Below are positions 16,971-31,893 of a stretch of DNA of 64,000 nt, one piece after another. The first letter of the stretch is position 1; each line of letters opens with the position of its first letter. Source of the DNA: Advenella kashmirensis WT001. Lineage in GTDB: Bacteria; Pseudomonadota; Gammaproteobacteria; Burkholderiales; Burkholderiaceae_B. Under the pieces are notes generated by a model. That model saw nothing but the letters and a program-made list of their open reading frames with translations, was not told the DNA's origin and did not search any database. Where the stretch lies: positions 2,046,001 through 2,110,000 of the forward strand of contig NC_017964.1 of assembly GCF_000219915.2 (NCBI RefSeq). The letters are read 5' to 3'. Both the position numbers and the translations under genes were made by a program.

Positions 16971-18097
16971 TTATTGTGTGTCTGGCTCTGACTTGAGTGC
17001 TGCGTTAATACCCAGCCCTTCAGTTTGCTCGGAATAGATCGAGGCAAACCAGCCTGGCTTGCTAACCAGTTTCGGAGAAAAAACGTTGCAGCCATCCTTC
17101 AGGTCTTTCCAGCTGCCGTCCTTACATAGTTTGATCGTTTCGTTGGTTACTTGCGGCAGGGGCAGTGTGATTTTCTGCGGGAACGTCTTGCCCTCGATGG
17201 ACTGCACCGCCAGCTTTAGCGCCAATGCGCCTGAATAGGGCGGAGAGGCATAGGAAATTCTAGGCGCACCAAGAGGACGATAACTACCGGTAGCACCATC
17301 CAGTTTTGTGTCGGGCGGGAGCATCTGCACGCGACCGCCGTTGGAGCCTTCACCGGCACATGGCAGCAGGTCTTTGGCGTCTTTGCCAGCTTCCAACTGC
17401 ATGGAATTTGCCGTGTAGCAGCCCACCTGAAGCCACAGCCCATCTATCTGGTCCCAGTTTCTGACGGCCACAATTTTTGACAATTCAGTTCGGGCAACGG
17501 CCTGGTTCCACATGCCAGGGGTCTCTGCACGATTTTCATCTCGGGGTGTTTGGCAAATACTTCCTTGGCCGCTTCGGTTCGATATTTATCCACCGATGTG
17601 CCAGGCACGCCCGTGAGCATAACAACGTTGCCTTTGTAATTCATTTTCTTGGCCAGCCATTCTGCAGTGACCCGCCCGGCCTCGTGCTGGTCGATGGCTA
17701 CGTTATGCGCACATGGTTCAGTGACCTCGCCATCGTAGGCAAAGATTTTTACGCCTTTATCGCATGCATTTTTGATCACACGGTTCAGTGCGGTAGGAGA
17801 GATCGGAAATACGACGATGGCTTCGGCGCCCGCCTGAACCATGGCGTTGATCTGCTGAATTTGTTTTTGCGCATTTTCCCCGGATACTTGCACCTGAAGG
17901 TCAACCTTATCTGCCAGTTCCGGTGTTTTGGCCATGGCTTTGACCATATTGGCCGCCTCCGCCTGCCAGTCATTTCCGATGAAACTCATGCTCAGATAGA
18001 TTTTGTGTTTTTTTGCCGCCTGAGCGTGCGTCACCGCACTCAGAGGGGCCATGGTCAACGCCAGCAGTGATGCCAGTAGTACAGATTTGGTTTGCAT
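16971..18097 (-). CDS. Periplasmic sugar-binding protein of the ABC importer (frame break near 17528)
   Basis: Receptor of the Peripla_BP_4 (ribose/xylose-like) group. Signal peptide ends AVTHAQA; then KKHKIYLSMSFIGNDWQAEA, the first strand and ligand loop, GAEAIVVFPISPTALNRVI and VAIDQHEAGRVTAEWLA. The first frame loses sense after PEMKIVQ; restoring one G (GTGGCAGAG read as GTGCAGAG) gives IVAETPGMWNQAVARTEL and the second lobe, ending at 16971. Corrected length 375 residues. First gene of the importer operon, divergent from the GntR regulator. Confidence 0.87.
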
Positions 18098-20902: not shown

Positions 20903-21918
20903 TTAACGCAATGTTGTGCCAGTCACCGGTACTACGGGCAGAACCAATGTATCGAATTCAAAGCGGCCATTTTCCAGTCGCGCCAGCAGGGCCGCACCAC
21001 CGGTCTGGCCTAACGTATAGGCCGGCGATTGGACCGATTCCAGCACCGGTAGCAGGGCAGCAGTGGTGTCAAATGCATTGAAGCCGGTAATACCGATATC
21101 TTCGGGGACTCGATGGCCGTTGTCTGTCAGATGTCGGTAGGCAACATAGGCCAGCCGGTCGTTGGTCCCAATAACAACATCGGGCCGGCCGTGCGTTGCC
21201 ATGGCGGCATCCAGCGCCTGCTGGATAGACTGCTGCCGGTTCTCGTCACTTGAAATAATCTGGTAATTGCATTTGTGTTTATCCAGTACCTTGCGTAGTC
21301 CTTTTACCCGTGCTTCGATTGCGTGCCATTGCAATTGCGGAGTCAGTATGAAAACCCGCTTGGGATTGCGCGCCACGATCTTCAGCGCCAAGGTTTCTGC
21401 ACCACCCTGATCGTCCTGATTGATAAAACAGCAGTCTGTCAGCGTTTTTCCGGGTTTCTCCTGAAACACTACCACGGGATGTCCGCTGGCAAGTACCTGA
21501 TCAAGATAACGCCGACGTTGTGCGATACGGCCCGAGAGCATCAGCAAATGGCATCCACTACCGACTCCTTCAACAGGAATGATTTTTCGAAGCTCGCTGG
21601 CTCAATCCCGTGCAACAACAGGCCATAGTTATGGTTGCCAAGAAAGTTCGACAGACCGGCAACCAGGTGTGTCGTATAGGGGTCAGTCAGAAAAGTTGGC
21701 GAATTGTCGACGATGGCCATGCCGACAATATAATTGCGCTGCGTGCGCAACTGACGGCCACTGCGGTTCGGCCGGTAGTTCAGCTCCCGGATAATGCGCT
21801 GGACGCGCGCAACCGTTTCGGCAGATATGCCTTTGTTTATGCCATTGACTACTTTTGAAACCGTGGCAATGGAAACCTTGGCCTGCTCTGCGACGGATTT
21901 TAGCGTAATAGGCTTCAT
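20903..21918 (-). CDS. LacI-family transcriptional regulator (frame break near 21550)
   Basis: Repressor with an N-terminal LacI helix-turn-helix (ITLKSVAEQAKVSIATVSKV), hinge (YRPNRSGRQLRTQRNYIVG), then a periplasmic-binding-like domain. The first frame ends after KESVVDAIC; one missing base (GATGGCCAT read as GATGCCAT) gives VDGHLLMLSGRIAQRR and the remaining core (PDVVIGTNDRLAYVA, IGITGFNAFDTTA). Corrected length 338 residues, typical. It is divergent from a Bug receptor gene and convergent to the RraA-like gene, and probably binds the palindrome at 19785-19812 and/or the repeat at 22056-22070. Confidence 0.88.
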
Positions 21919-23256: not shown

Positions 23257-24542
23257 TCAGCCCAATTGCAATCGTAATGCCAGCGCAGCAAGCGTAACCA
23301 GCAATACCGGCAGTGTCAGTACGATACCCACTCGGAAATAATAACCCCAGGTAATTCTGACACCTTTTCGCGCAAGCACATGCAGCCACAGCAGGGTAGC
23401 CAGGCTGCCTACCGGTGTGATTTTCGGACCCAGGTCGCTGCCGATGACATTGGCATAGATCATCGCCTCACGGACCAGGCCGGTGGCCTGACTGCTTTCA
23501 ATGGACAGGCGCCGATCAACACTGTGGGCAGATTATTCATGACAGAGGAAAGCAGGGCAGTAAGCACGCCTGTTCCCAGGGTTGCGGCCCAGATGCCGTT
23601 GTTTGCCAGCAGGTCGAGAATCTGCGTAATATACCCTGTCAATCCGGCGTTGCGCAGCCCATAAACAACCAGGTACATGCCCAGGGAGAAAAATACAATG
23701 GACCACGGTGCTTCACGCAACACCTTGCGGGTGCGTATGATGTGGCCCTGGCCGGCAACAATCCACAGGATGAGCGCACCTGCCGAAGCAATCACACTGA
23801 CTGGAATACCGCTATCTTCGAGCAGAAAAAATCCTAGAAACAGCATGATCAGCACCAGCCAGCCCGTATAAAATGTTCGCCGGTCAACAATGGCTGACGA
23901 CGGTGCTTTGAGCGCAGCTTCGTTGTAAGTGACGGGAATGTTCGCGCGAAAGTAGCTGGCCAGCACCAATAGAGTCGCAACAACCGATACAAGGTTTACC
24001 GGTACCATGATCTGTGCATACCGGGCAAAGCTGATATTGAAAAAATCCGCCGATACAATATTGACCAGGTTCGAGACGATCAGCGGCAAGCTTGCAGTGT
24101 CTGCGATGAAGCCGGCTGCCATTACAAATGCAAGTGTGGCTGCCGGGCCAAAGCCCAGTGCCGTCAGCATGGCCATGACAATTGGTGTGAGGATGAGTGC
24201 AGCGCCATCGTTGGCAAACAAGGCAGATACCGCAGCGCCCAGCAGAATCACCAGACAGAACAGTACACGTCCCCGTTCTTTCCCCCAACGAGCTACGTGC
24301 AACGCAGCCCATTCGAAAAAGCCCGCTTCGTCCAGCAGCAGGCTGATAATGATAATTGCAATGAACGTGGCGGTGGCGTTCCAGATAATCGCCCACACCA
24401 CCGGAATATCGGAAAAGTGTATGGTGCCGGTCAGCAATGCCAGTGCTGCGCCAAGCATCGCGCTCCAGCCCACACCCAGGCCGCGCGGCTGCCAGATAAC
24501 CAGAATCATGGTAAGAATGAAAATAGCGAGGGCAATCAGCAT
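23257..24542 (-). CDS. arsB: Arsenite efflux permease ArsB (frame break near 23508)
   Basis: Inner-membrane arsenite/antimonite exporter with about 12 helices. Visible: [19 protein letters not shown] start, [39 protein letters not shown], and [11 protein letters not shown]. After VLIGA the frame is lost; one missing base (GCCCTG read as GCCTG) restores [20 protein letters not shown] and [20 protein letters not shown], the conserved end. Corrected length 428 residues, equal to E. coli ArsB. No arsR or arsC is adjacent, so its control is not visible here. It lies 91 bases after the lipid operon on the same strand. Confidence 0.9.
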
Positions 24543-24633: not shown

Positions 24634-25535
24634 TCAGTGACGGGTGCCGGCGCAGTATTTTTTTGCTTCGTACTCGCTTTTTTTCTGAAGTAAAAGACAA
24701 TGCAGCATTTCCGATGACAGGCCGTGCAGCACCAGCCGGTGTCCGGCACGCAAGGTGGACAAGGGCACCAGCGGGTGATGATTGTTAACCAGCATCAGAT
24801 GCTCTGGCGCCTGCAGGATCTGGGCCGCGTAGATTCCAATTGTTTCATCAAGCTGTAGTGAGTTGGCAGCCCGCCAGAAATCATTATCGGTCAGCAGCAG
24901 TTGATACAGCGGGGTAAACAGCTCAATGGCGCTTTGCAGATCCAGTACATTGCTGCGTGTTCCGGGCATGTCCTGCAGGCGGACGGTCGGTTCGTGCAAC
25001 ATTGAAAAATCCGGGTCGTCTACCGGCCCCAGACGCTTGCCCGCAACAAGCAAGGCCTGGTTCAAACGGATGACGAAGTTGTAGAGATTAATATCATGTT
25101 TGACGAAGACGTGATCTCTCAGATCATCTATGGTCTCGGGTTCCAATGGGCTGGTCGACACCGGGGCCGGCGAGTTGGCTGCAATGAATGCCAGGATCTG
25201 GGATCCAAGATGAAAATGCCGCAGGATCAGCCAATTGGCTTGCGGGGATACGAAACGCTTGAGCCCCCATACCAGAATGCGATGCAGCAGGGCAGACTGG
25301 GCCCAGCGCTTGGCAAAAACGTTTTAACGATCTGGATCAGGATAATGCATAAGCGGGCCAGCGGCCGTAAAAACGGCAACAGATATTGGCGCGAACTTGA
25401 ACTGGAATCTTCCAGCCAGGCCTGCTTGACCGCATCGGGAAGCGGGGTGCTTTGATCCAGGTAGGATGCCAGCCATGGGCTCGGGTCCTCAGGATTATGT
25501 TCTTTTTTCAGAAATTCAGGTTGGTCACTTGTCAC
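24634..25535 (-). CDS. Uncharacterised protein, last gene of the lipid operon (frame break near 25317)
   Basis: I do not recognise a characterised function. The GTG at 25535 overlaps the stop of the di-iron domain gene as GTGA, so it is translationally coupled. The first frame gives SDQPEFLKKEHNPEDPSPWL and a hydrophobic segment around RLCIILIQIVKTF. One missing T in a T run restores FAKRWAQSALLHRILVWGLK and then DLRDHVFVKHDINLYNFVIR and SLQLDETIGIYAAQILQAP. Corrected length 300 residues. No signal peptide; one or two membrane-associated helices. The strict coupling suggests a subunit or chaperone of the preceding enzyme. It may belong to a domain of unknown function (DUF6999 comes to mind, unverified). 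Confidence 0.7.
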
Positions 25536-26194
25536 GATTCGTACTCTTTTGCGTGATGAAATTGCATGAGATAAAGTGCAGCAGTGCGTCTGGCAGTATC
25601 GACGATCTGGCGCTCCGCACGACCACGATTGTCGCAATCGAGCGCAAGTGACACGGCAACCAGCCAGCGTTGCAGATGATGCTGGTCATTATGGCCATGA
25701 TATTCCAGAAACCGAAATGCGTCGGCCGGTAGCGGCAGGCTCGCCCGAAGCAAGGGCAGCAGGGCAGGGACAATTCGCTGCCCCGTTCCTTCAATAATGT
25801 AGATGGCGCCCAGTAGTCCGATGGGGTTTGCCGTATCGGCCAGACCATGCAAATAGGCATTCAGCGCTTCGCCGCCGGGGTTACGGCGTAGCGCATCAAT
25901 ATCCGCTACCGGTCCGCCCGCCTTGCGGTAGTCTGTGAAAAGAATCTGAAAATCATTTTGCTCTTCGCCCGCATGCAGGTTAATCAGGTCTGCCAGCGGC
26001 GCGTATTGTCCCGACAGCGACCCAGTAGCCTTGCGCATCCATTTGGTACCTTCGCGCACTTGCGGAATCCAGTGGGCCGTCCAGTTGATATAGTCCTGCG
26101 TATCAAAGCGGCGTTCCCGTAATGCGCTGACAAGGGGCGTGCGCCAGACGCGGGAGCGGTAATCGTGCCAAATGGTGGCTAATTCCGTCAGCAA
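25532..26194 (-). CDS. Haem-oxygenase-like di-iron (HDO) domain protein, probably the C-terminal half of a fusion with the ketosynthase
   Basis: 220 residues from a TTG at 26194, in the fold of TENA/PqqC/UndA-type iron enzymes. Candidate iron ligands: Glu and His in LINLHAGEEQND, and EYHGHNDQHHLQRWLV near the C-terminus. Known members oxidise fatty acids or amino acids (UndA makes terminal alkenes from fatty acids). The frame is open upstream of the TTG to a TGA near 26330, and that stretch (RSQELSNTLDAEAIGPP, PAQAPQGLAPLLTE) looks coding, whereas the ketosynthase frame there is Arg/Pro noise. So the domain is probably joined to the ketosynthase by a linker, the link broken by one missing base near 26294. 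Confidence 0.8.
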   Translation of the reverse strand: MLTELATIWHDYRSRVWRTPLVSALRERRFDTQDYINWTAHWIPQVREGTKWMRKATGSLSGQYAPLADLINLHAGEEQNDFQILFTDYRKAGGPVADIDALRRNPGGEALNAYLHGLADTANPIGLLGAIYIIEGTGQRIVPALLPLLRASLPLPADAFRFLEYHGHNDQHHLQRWLVAVSLALDCDNRGRAERQIVDTARRTAALYLMQFHHAKEYES

Positions 26195-27491
26195 CGGGGC
26201 CAGGCCTTGGGGTGCCTGTGCCGGGTCGTGAGGCGGTCCGATCGCTTCGGCGTCCAGCGTGTTGGAAAGCTCCTGCGATCGGGCCTGGGTAGCCCTGCGC
26301 TCTGGGTGGCTGCAACTGGCCCATCAGACACATACGCATTGGCTGGCTGTGAGCGCAACAGCGTGTCCTGCTTTGGCGAATCGCTTGCAGTTTCTACTTC
26401 AAACAGCATATACGCGGTCATGAACCGGCCGGATTCGGGGACATAGCACAGGATCTGATCGCCGGCCGCCAGCATTTTGGTTTGCAGAAATTCAGCCAGC
26501 ATGATTAGTATAGAGGCAGCGCCCGTATTGCCGCGCCACGCCAGATTACTGAACCAGCGCTCACGGGCAATCGACAAGCCCGCCTGGTCCAGCAGATCTT
26601 CGACCACCGGAATGAATTTTTCAGACGAATAATGGCACAGGAAATGGCGGATGCGTTCCGGATCAATCCATTTGTCACGCACCAGCTTAACGTATTCGTG
26701 AATACCGATATCGAACAGGTGTGGCAGCAGCCGAATGTCCTGTCGTAAAGCAAGGGCGCCATCCGCTTCGGCATCGGCCCAGGACGGATAGTCAAGGTGG
26801 CCACGCTGGCGATCGGCCGACAAGCCCAATTGCATGCAGACCGGATAATCCCCGGAGAACGAACGCTGGTGTATCCATTTGAGCCTGATGCGCAGTCCGG
26901 CAAAATTGATGTACCCGATTGTTCCTGGCCCGACAGTAGCACGGCACCCGCGCCGTCGGACAACATCCAGCGCAGGAAATGCGCATCAAAATCGGCATCA
27001 TAGCCACGAGAGGCGAACCGGGAACGCTTGAACAGGCGCGAGGGCATTTCGCTGGCCACGGCGATACCATGCGTGTGAGCGCCGGCCTGTATACCCTGGG
27101 CGACCGCCTGAATGGCCGCTACCCCGGCCGCACAGATACCGTGGATTGATACGGTTTCCATGGGCGGGGCCGACAGCTGGCCCTGGATCATGTTGGCAAA
27201 ACCCGGCATGAGCGTGTCGCCGCCAGACGAGCCGCTGGCTAGCAGCGAAATATCCGACAGTGTCAGTTGGCCGCGCTGCAGGCAATCGGTCACCGCCGCA
27301 GATGCCAGCATGGCATTGGTGTGCGTTGTATTGCCTGCTGAATCGATCGCGTAATAGCGCTGCTTGATGCCGTTTTCAGCAAGAATGCGTTGCTTGATCC
27401 GGCCAGAGATGCGGTTAAGCGGTGCGATGTAGTCGTCCATGCGCTCGTTCCCTACCGGGTTTCCAGGGAGAAAGTAGCTGGCTTGCTGCAA
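26188..27491 (-). CDS. Beta-ketoacyl-ACP synthase III-like enzyme, StlD/DarB type (frame break near 26915; likely fused to the HDO domain)
   Basis: Condensing enzyme that joins acyl chains. First frame: ISGRIKQRILAENGIKQRYY, DISLLASGSSGGDTLMPGF and SIHGICAAGVAAIQA with catalytic Cys about residue 120. The frame is lost after EQSG; one missing G restores YINFAGLRIRLKWIHQRSFS, then IRHFLCHYSSEKF (catalytic His) and WRGNTGAASILIML (catalytic Asn), completing the Cys-His-Asn triad. Start: TTG 27491, but one extra T in the T run at 27491-27497 would bring in ATG 27517, eight bases after the desaturase stop. The CHYSS motif is that of ketosynthases acting on beta-ketoacyl or long acyl chains, not housekeeping FabH. 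A second break near 26294 separates it from the HDO domain. Confidence 0.83.
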
Positions 27492-27527
27492 AAAAACTTG
27501 GTCAAATTGGATAGCATAATCAGGCCG

Positions 27528-28499
27528 TCAGGAAGTGGGCGGGGGCAGGTGGTCGGTGCGAGTGCACATCAGCGTTTGGCTGCGAAAGCGTGGACTGAAA
27601 GTACCCTTGACAAAGGTGCGCATCATATAATTGATTAGCCCGCGTTCAAGCAATGCAGGATGAATTTGGCTGCGATACTGATTCTTATGCAAGTGCGTCA
27701 GCAGCGACCAGTGGGCGCGGGAATGTTCGTGATGCGCGGTATGCAGTCCGATATTAAACAGAAGCGGGTTGACCCATCCTTCGAAATTACGGGCATAGGC
27801 AAGTGGCAATTGCGTGTTGCGACTGTGTGCCGCGCCATCGGCATGGGCGTGCTGCAAATAGTTGGTAGCCAGTAACCAGTGCAGCCCATGCAACTGCGGA
27901 ACAATGACAAGCAGCATGGTCTTGCCCGGGTTGATCGCCAGCAGCAGTGTCCAGAGCAGAAACCAGAGTGCGTACTGAAACAAGCAATAGCGCCACACGC
28001 CCGGTTGATGACGACGCAGTCTTCCAAGCCAACGATAGATAGCCGGATACAGCACGCCGATTGCCTGAAATGGATGCAGCAGATAGCCGGGCAGGGTATT
28101 GGTATCGCCTGCAGCAAACCGATAGGTGCGAGCGATATCCCGTTCACTATGCTTATGCCGGTGATGATTGGCCACATGTGTTGGGAAGAAAACGCAACTC
28201 GGATGCCCTTGCAGGAGCGTGATGAGCAAATCTGTACAGCGATTGGCTCGTTTGCCATGCCACATGCGCAAATGGGTATGGTTATGATGGATAACGCCAA
28301 CGCCCAGCGTCAGAAACAGCAGGATCGGATACAGCACTACAGACAAGCCATAGATCCATTGCCAAATCACGAGTGCCGGCAAGACCAGCAGATACAGCAA
28401 GCTTTGCCAATCTCTGGCATATTTCAATCGAGGCAGACCGGATTGCCGTTGATTAATGGGCTCATTTTGAGAGCTTGATTGATTCAGCTGCAGCCTCAT
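27528..28499 (-). CDS. Membrane fatty acid desaturase/hydroxylase-family protein
   Basis: Di-iron membrane enzyme of 323 residues with the three histidine clusters of the FA_desaturase family: HHNHTH after the second helix, HVANHHRHKH, and HTAHHEHS near the C-terminus. Four or more hydrophobic helices (LLYLLVLPALVIWQW, LYPILLFLTLGVGV, FLLWTLLLAI). Substrate is probably an acyl chain or lipid tail. Its ATG overlaps the stop of the sterol-desaturase-family gene (ATGA), and the ketosynthase gene follows directly. It probably introduces a double bond or hydroxyl in the same product. Confidence 0.92.
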   Translation of the reverse strand: MRLQLNQSSSQNEPINQRQSGLPRLKYARDWQSLLYLLVLPALVIWQWIYGLSVVLYPILLFLTLGVGVIHHNHTHLRMWHGKRANRCTDLLITLLQGHPSCVFFPTHVANHHRHKHSERDIARTYRFAAGDTNTLPGYLLHPFQAIGVLYPAIYRWLGRLRRHQPGVWRYCLFQYALWFLLWTLLLAINPGKTMLLVIVPQLHGLHWLLATNYLQHAHADGAAHSRNTQLPLAYARNFEGWVNPLLFNIGLHTAHHEHSRAHWSLLTHLHKNQYRSQIHPALLERGLINYMMRTFVKGTFSPRFRSQTLMCTRTDHLPPPTS

Positions 28500-29282
28500 G
28501 TTGTGCCTGCATCCATCGAATCCGGCTGCTTGCGCTTTGTCAGTCGGTCAATAATAGCGCTTGCGGCATCGGCTTGAAGGCGTGTTCCGAACAGGCGGTC
28601 CATGAACGTGAACTGAAAACCGTAATTGCCGCTATAGCAAGCGTGATGCAAGTGATGCCTGCGGCTCGCAGCAAACCAATGAGCGTAAGACACGCCAGGA
28701 AAAAAATCATAATTGGCATGGCCAACGCAATTGAAAAACAGGCTGAACAGCGGAACAGAAAATAGCGCCCAGAAACTGAAGTCGTGTAAAAGCATGGGCA
28801 ATAGAATGACGTTGCCCAACATGAGCGCTTCAATAGGATGAAAACTGTAGGTGGCAAACGGCGTGGTAACCACCGAACGGTGATGTGGTAAATGAAACCG
28901 GCGCAGCCGCGGGTATGTAATAGCCTGTGGTTGAACCAGAAATGGATGTCGTTCCAGATAGCAAGAATAAGAATCTCAAGGAATATCTGCCATCCGGAAG
29001 GACTTGGATCTAAAGAAGCCCAGCCAGTTGGAGCAAGCCCCAGGGGAAAATCATGCCAATGCCGAAAATAAGTACAGACGAGCCAGACCAGGCAAGCTCA
29101 TGGCGCAATTGGGCGGCAGTGACCGGGCGCGGGTCCAGAATGCGGCCAATACCCAGCGCTGGCAATAGATACCGGGTCAATATCCAAGTGATGCTACCGA
29201 AAACCAGGTAAATGCCGCCGAAAAATAGCAGCCCCCAAAGGATAACTTGCCATGCGGATAGCGATAGAAAGATTTGACCCAT
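28496..29282 (-). CDS. Sterol desaturase/fatty acid hydroxylase-family protein (frame breaks near 29024 and 28908)
   Basis: Di-iron membrane oxygenase, first gene of the lipid operon. The N-terminal frame (MGQIFLSLSAWQVILWGLLF) has two or three helices and ends at a false stop after LLQLAGLL. One added G gives LLQLGWASLDPSPSGWQIFL, then IWNDIHFWFNHRLLHT with the first His cluster; a second added base gives LRRFHLPHHRSVVTTPFATY with the second; the third is ASRRHHLHHACYSGNYGF. All three clusters of the family (HxxxH, HxxHH, HxxHH) appear only after the two corrections. Corrected length 262 residues. The stop overlaps the desaturase ATG. Confidence 0.87.
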
Positions 29283-30691: not shown

Positions 30692-31893
30692 ATGATTAAA
30701 CCAGTCAGTATTTCAACATTGGATCCGCAGCGCCGCTTTGTTCTGACTCCGGTATTGACCTTGCTGATACTGCTTTTGCTCGTCGTGACGCTGGCTGGCT
30801 GTTCACCAGACGATGGTACGAACACGCCCGCGCCCCGGGCCGAGGGCCCACCCGAAGTCGGTGTGGTAACACTCAAATCACAACGCATTACCTTTACCAC
30901 TGAACTGCCCGGACGTACCGTTGCACCAGTCATCGCTCAAATTCGTCCTCAGGTTAACGGAATTATCCAGAAGCAGTTGTTCACCGAAGGCTCGCAAGTT
31001 AAGGCGGGACAGGTGCTTTATCAATTGGATCCCGCCGTTTATGAGGCCGAATACGCCGTGGCCAGAGCTAATGTGAAAAAGGCCGAATCTAACTACGCCA
31101 ACGCCCGAACCGTGGCCAGGCGCAATCGGGAGCTGGTGCGCATTGATGCGATCAGCGCGCAGATAAACGAGACTTCGCAGGCCGAGGCGCAACAGGCGGC
31201 GGCTGATCTTGCCGTTGCCAAAGCCCAGGAACAGCGTGCCAGGATAAACCTTGACTACACCCGTATTGTCTCGCCGATCGACGGCTGGATTGAATTGTCC
31301 AATGTTACGCCCGGCGCACTGGTCACTGCCAATCAGGATACGCGCTCACAATTGTGCAGAAACTGGATCCGCTCTATGTGCATGTATCGCAGTCATCTGT
31401 GCAATTGTTGCAGTTGAAGGACGATATTGCCGCAGGCCGACTACAAGCGACAGCAGAAAATGACGCGGTCATTCGGTTGCGGCTGGAAAACGGGCGCCTG
31501 TACCCGCATTCTGGTCGCCTGACATTCAGCGGCGTCACGGTCAATCCTGGTACCGGTTCGATCACCCTGCGAGCGAACGTACCCAATCCGGATCGGGTAT
31601 TGATGCCGGGCATGTACGTGCGCGCCGTATTGGAAAACAACACGGGTGACCAATCCGTACTGGTCCCGCAACAAGCCGTTACCCGCAGGCCTGATGCCAG
31701 CACGGTAGCGTTAGTGGTCGGCACGGATGATAAAGTGCAGGAACGTGCCGTCGTGGTCGGACGCGCGATCGGCGATAGCTGGCAGGTCCTTGAAGGGCTT
31801 GCCGCCGGCGATCGGGTGGTGGTGACCGGTTCCCTGCATGTCCGGCCAGGCACTGCTGTGCGGCCGGTAGAAACCACAAGCAAACGGGGTTAG
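30692..31893 (+). CDS. RND efflux periplasmic adaptor (MFP), AcrA/MexA type (frame break near 31341)
   Basis: Lipoprotein adaptor linking pump and outer-membrane channel. Lipobox VTLAGCSPDD; biotinyl-lipoyl halves RPQVNGIIQKQLFTEGSQVK and RIVSPIDGWIELSNVTPGAL flank a coiled-coil hairpin (residues about 110-185). The first frame ends soon after VTANQDT; one missing G restores ALTIVQKLDPLYVHVSQ, then the beta-barrel (VPNPDRVLMPGMYVRAVLEN) and membrane-proximal domain. Corrected length 400 residues. First gene of an operon with the RND pump (10 bases on) and OMF. Confidence 0.9.

Follow-up and report, generated by a model that had tools for sequence, protein, structure and literature searches.

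The window, by which we mean the whole 64,000-nucleotide stretch of Advenella kashmirensis WT001 that was analyzed (NC_017964.1, positions 2,046,001 to 2,110,000), carries five recognizable domains on its minus strand, running from 29282 down to 24634 and identified through Pfam and NCBIfam matches on pieces of open reading frames. With the intact locus of Advenella incenata (L016) as the reference, they fall into the following features.

28496..29282, minus strand: HYD, a membrane protein of the sterol-desaturase-like FA_hydroxylase family (PF04116), placed by tblastn with its 262-aa L016 counterpart; in the window it lies in three frames (29282-29040, 29049-28909 and 28906-28499; 85, 81 and 93% identity to L016).
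27528..28499, minus strand: DES, a fatty acid desaturase (FA_desaturase, PF00487), 323 aa, frame intact.
25532..27517, minus strand: KS::HDO, a StlD/DarB-like ketosynthase (KS) joined to a haem-oxygenase-like domain (HDO), 662 aa in L016; three frames in the window (27512-26898 and 26898-26308 for the KS, 26287-25535 for the linker and HDO).
25535..26200, minus strand: the HDO domain of the fusion (Haem_oxygenas_2, PF14518).
24634..25535, minus strand: DUF6999 (PF22523), 304 aa in L016, with a GTG start; two frames in the window (25517-25311 and 25311-24649).

When checked on the sequence, the couplings described in an earlier note on this DNA were all present: the DES start overlaps the HYD stop in an ATGA (28499-28496), the DUF6999 start overlaps the HDO stop in a GTGA (25535-25532), and ~10 bases separate DES from the KS. 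The first piece of KS::HDO is not in frame with the ATG at 27517. The Pfam matches of the operon pieces include no ACP, thioesterase, or standard fatty acid domain other than the KS, as the note had said of the operon's genes, and its proposal that the acyl chains come from primary metabolism is supported and probably correct. Its picture of one condensing enzyme accompanied by three O2- or iron-type enzymes in a coupled operon is likewise supported, and the hydroxylase, the desaturase, the ketosynthase III, and the HDO that it named were all found, but the protein that it called unrecognized belongs to DUF6999.

The note had counted “four or five genes,” with KS and HDO separate, and this count has to be revised. 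In the nearest relatives, A. incenata (L016) and two further Advenella strains (L017 and L018), which are 94, 93, and 87% identical to the window over the larger DUF6999 piece, KS and HDO form a single open frame of 662 to 666 aa, and both the KS domain and PF14518 are present in all 120 fusion homologues listed (120 of 6339 below an E value of 1e-3). Because KS and HDO are fused in intact relatives, we count four genes, not five. Three of the four (HYD, KS::HDO, and DUF6999) are frame-broken in the window and only DES is open, as judged by tblastn against L016, and the open reading frames of the window therefore look like more, shorter genes than exist.

The gene order is conserved in relatives, and the loss of order that the earlier note had set as a refutation was thus not seen. 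We compared 98 wide loci, with genes called by a simple custom script; 80 came from named records, chosen out of 271 as those most similar to the window's larger DUF6999 piece and thus biased toward close relatives, and 18 were fetched regions. The complete order HYD-DES-KS::HDO-DUF6999, with KS and HDO fused, was found in 83 of the 98, or in 79 of 94 when the four fetched regions whose contigs equal one of the 80 in length, and which we took as duplicates (L101/L085, L105/L029, L109/L087, and L110/L042), were set aside, and the median distance from KS::HDO to DUF6999 was -4 bases. Among the remainder, DES is missing in two loci and HYD in one, one locus is cut by a contig end, and in two Variovorax loci HYD is joined directly to DUF6999, without DES or KS::HDO (L050:6847-8510 and L052:3803-5427). 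The other nine have KS, HDO, and DUF6999 without HYD or DES: in one of them (L064) the KS is split, and in eight distant regions (L099, L100, and L117 to L122) KS and HDO are separate, adjacent genes next to DUF6999, with neither HYD nor DES nearby. The order and class names of genomes are partly deduced in this comparison; L099 and L117 to L121 are probably alphaproteobacterial, since the named hits closest to the DUF6999 protein of L120 come from Sphingomonas, Sphingobium, and Novosphingobium, and L100 and L122 are probably gammaproteobacterial. The same KS, HDO, and DUF6999 triad is carried by a named Pseudoalteromonas plasmid (L123), the HDO of which has no PF14518 match yet scores 291 bits with the operon HDO profile. 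Searching plasmids with the DNA gave no match, and searching them with protein gave Pseudoalteromonas sp. THAF3 only. The core unit common to all of the lineages seen is thus KS plus HDO plus DUF6999, and HYD and DES are additions to it.

Two of these loci share a further feature: a His-rich protein of 185 aa without a Pfam family precedes the plasmid triad (L123:5648-6202), and a similar one of 188 aa lies directly upstream of KS-HDO-DUF6999 in L100 (L100:10444-11007). Both are probably membrane bound. Beyond the four genes, neighbor clustering gave a commonest neighbor present in 28 of 99 loci. We considered assigning a function from the neighbors and rejected this course, as no outside gene recurs in more than those 28 loci and lipid-type neighbors are single cases: Pfam identified DgkA beside L103 and an acyltransferase/AMP-ligase beside L099, and a phospholipase D (PLD)-like gene upstream in L104 was named by reading its translation. 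In L099, a 1133-aa MFS-acyltransferase-AMP-binding protein comes after DUF6999 (L099:6551-9949).

The linkage of HDO and DUF6999 extends to whole genomes. We ran an HDO profile against the genome samples already used for DUF6999, with at most 9 to 10 candidates scored per genome. Of 300 genomes drawn from the window's order, 13 have DUF6999, and a strong operon-type HDO occurs in the same 13 (E values of 3.5e-108 to 7.3e-94, the remaining matches starting at 2e-26). In the class of genome G512, both occurred in the same 6 of 289 genomes, and the next best HDO match stood at 8e-25. Across the two samples, 19 genomes had both, 570 had neither, and none had one alone. In wider draws, DUF6999 turned up in 9 of 398 genomes sampled across the phylum and, for the order of genome G640, in 2 of 197; Caulobacter vibrioides, used as a control, carries it as well. 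After thinning, KS, HDO, and DUF6999 distances are correlated over 33 loci (r = 0.97, 0.83, and 0.86), and over 21 loci those of HYD and DES track the KS distances (r = 0.80 and 0.69), values reached in 0 of 2000 permutations and to which whole-genome shared descent contributes. Given the perfect co-occurrence of HDO and DUF6999 in 13 of 300 and 6 of 289 genomes, the unit is very probably a dedicated pathway.

The best curated match of the KS is the StlD/DarB family of NCBIfam, and several homologues carry the NCBI name “StlD/DarB family beta-ketosynthase.” The label StlD/DarB-like given in the earlier note therefore stands as to the best match, but it needs qualification, because all five operon KSs tested fall below the curated cutoff of 450 bits for NF005293 (320, 301, 327, 372, and 315 bits); the L016 KS, the source of the value of 320, reaches 265 of the 550 bits set for NF053539. 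A Cys-His-Asn triad aligns with that of StlD (PDB 5gk0) and is conserved as C129 in 96/96, H296 in 95/96, and N331 in 95/95 loci, where here and below residue counts are taken over loci that retain 60% or more of the domain, duplicate contigs included.

The HDO reaches the gathering score of PF14518 and has the haem-oxygenase-like fold. Its ligand-like residues H516, E520, D523, E577, H608, D612, and H615 (L016 numbering) are invariant in 96/96 loci, and the α2 Glu and the α3 H-x3-D-x2-H are present. Helix α1, in contrast, has an Asp in 96/96 loci where related HDOs have a His (11/11), giving E-x2-D in place of an E-H pair; an invariant His stands seven positions ahead of this Asp. The operon HDO thereby departs from the E-H-X-H-(D/E)-H metal motif reported for ~85% of the HDO groups analyzed (PMC11363339). 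Related HDOs occur in other settings. In eight regions (L124 to L129, L131, and L132) an operon recurs in the order acyltransferase-like gene, AMP-binding enzyme, HDO, and short-chain dehydrogenase (SDR); in L124 the T_hemolysin (PF12261) and AMP-binding genes were typed by Pfam, and the other members, including the SDRs, were named by reading. A single frame of 672 or 700 aa contains the HDO of L128 and L129, which is probably fused there to the AMP-binding enzyme, and in L130, L133, and L134 the HDO stands beside a FeeM-like acyltransferase, which in L130, the only one Pfam scanned, also has a cyclic-nucleotide-binding domain. Since related HDOs adjoin acyl-activating enzymes, SDRs, T_hemolysin-like genes, and FeeM-like acyltransferases, the wider HDO clade seems to work on acyl compounds.

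The accessory enzymes keep their histidine clusters. HYD of an intact relative scores 81.4 bits with PF04116 (cutoff, 31), and H114, H119, H123, H131, H134, H135, H189, H210, H213, and H214 are invariant in 87/87 loci; DES of the window scores 60.4 bits with PF00487 (cutoff, 29.7), with H72, H74, H76, H108, H112, H113, and H257 conserved in 84/84, H253 in 83/83, and H256 in 83/84 loci. The two DUF6999 pieces of the window score 236.9 and 83.9 bits with PF22523 (cutoff, 27). A confident structure model of DUF6999 gave no usable fold match. Its invariant residues include Arg, His, Asp, and Glu, and the last three suggest that it may be an enzyme.

We put at about even the chance that this conserved, co-inherited operon makes an oxidized lipid by KS condensation of acyl thioesters followed by oxidation by the fused HDO. 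The substrates, reaction, and product that we infer, together with the part played by DUF6999, would be as follows. The KS, with its triad intact, would take two acyl or β-ketoacyl thioesters from primary metabolism and join them as StlD and DarB do, in a head-to-head condensation probably followed by ring closure. The fused HDO, acting as an O2-dependent metal oxidase, would oxidize the KS intermediate on the same polypeptide and so replace DarA, the aromatase that is a protein of its own in the dialkylresorcinol pathway. DUF6999 would be a third component, and the membrane hydroxylase HYD and the desaturase DES, where present, would further oxidize the chains. The likeliest product would be a membrane-resident lipid of the cyclohexanedione, resorcinol, or quinone type.

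A bolder version, which we advance tentatively and hold to be somewhat doubtful, is that KS, HDO, and DUF6999 make up a new type of pathway, in which a condensing enzyme has its own O2-dependent oxidase, the HDO uses an α1 Glu/Asp and a displaced His, DUF6999 is a third enzyme with a new fold, and the lipid belongs to a class not yet described.

OleA joins two acyl chains into a 2-alkyl-3-keto acid. In the main rival explanation, which we regard as unlikely, the KS would make such an acid in the manner of OleA and the HDO would cleave a C-C bond in the manner of UndA, with a long-chain ketone, enone, or alkene as the product. UndA has only fold similarity to the model of the operon HDO. Against this route, the KS scores higher with StlD/DarB models than with FabH-type models, and the neighbor counts given above leave no further conserved partner. 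In addition, the α1 E-H pair reported for UndA (PMC11363339) is changed in the operon HDO.

A still less probable explanation is that the HDO has no dimetal site and is not an oxidase but a scaffold or lipid-binding partner of the KS, so that HYD and DES alone would oxidize. The α1 Asp in place of His in all operon loci favors it, as does the fact that TenA and PqqC share the HDO fold in a structure model comparison, and the same source notes that in some HDO groups the motif may differ or metal binding may be absent (PMC11363339). The seven ligand-like residues, however, are invariant in a way that does not resemble a relaxed site, and the distant operons keep the HDO without HYD and DES nearby.

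For the window strain, the frame breaks raise the question of whether the operon is there a decayed pseudogene cluster without function, a reading that we hold to be improbable. In its favor, three genes are broken, and of the 23 DUF6999-carrying genomes found among 101 from its family, the window genome alone has a broken copy. However, breaks also affect four of the nine distinct flanking genes that we compared with relatives, and dN/dS against L016, calculated piece by piece, is 0.084 for HYD, 0.123 for DES, 0.058 for KS::HDO, and 0.065 for DUF6999, which is purifying selection. The split flanking genes (16974-18097, 20903-21918, 23260-24542, and 30797-31485) were named by reading their translations as a 375-aa gene, a LacI-type regulator, a transporter, and a membrane-fusion protein. 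The breaks are thus not particular to the operon and point to base-calling errors, the assembly probably having many small indels. Judged on these comparisons, assembly errors or very recent breaks fit best and are likelier than a long-dead operon.

The earlier note had held the operon not to be obvious from known clusters, and we found no description of it among the titles and abstract starts of the matches listed in the open-licence PMC literature. In that literature, we found no paper naming DUF6999, although other papers could, none with the phrase “DarB family beta-ketosynthase,” and none with “iron-containing redox enzyme” together with “ketosynthase”; the word ketosynthase is absent from the main text of a 2026 HDO review (PMC13108848). 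If the bolder version given above is true, there would be a new lipid class in relatives of Advenella, Bordetella, Achromobacter, and Variovorax, and perhaps in DUF6999-carrying sphingomonads and Caulobacter. The operon makes the assignment of DUF6999 and of the lipid tractable, and its HDO would lend itself to testing how far the metal site can vary in the HDO superfamily.

In the OleABCD olefin and PpyS pyrone pathways, KS-III-fold enzymes join two acyl chains. The operon KS is likewise of the KS-III type and is proposed to join two acyl chains, but the operon has no widely recurring extra partner genes, and neither HDO nor DUF6999 is known to belong to the olefin or pyrone routes. StlD and DarB, of the stilbene and dialkylresorcinol pathways, form the best curated family and supply the best solved relative (5gk0) of the KS, with the triad kept, although the operon KS lies below the curated cutoffs and is fused or adjacent to an HDO. 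The Azoarcus dar cluster lists darA, darB, and an ACP, DarB being the cyclase and DarA the aromatase (PMC3949708), whereas only HYD, DES, KS::HDO, and DUF6999 recur widely here. With UndA, CADD, SznF, HrmI, and FlcD, the operon HDO shares the fold, the α2 Glu, and the α3 H-x3-D-x2-H, and it differs from them in its α1 E-x2-D, its displaced His, and its joining to a ketosynthase; in 3dde (Sden_3740 of Shewanella denitrificans) the aligned α1 residue is His, not Asp. What is new here is a KS below the StlD/DarB cutoff, an HDO with an α1 Asp, and a DUF6999 model with no usable fold match, and we regard the system as a variation on known lipid-condensing pathways, set apart by its unusual HDO and by DUF6999 as the third protein.
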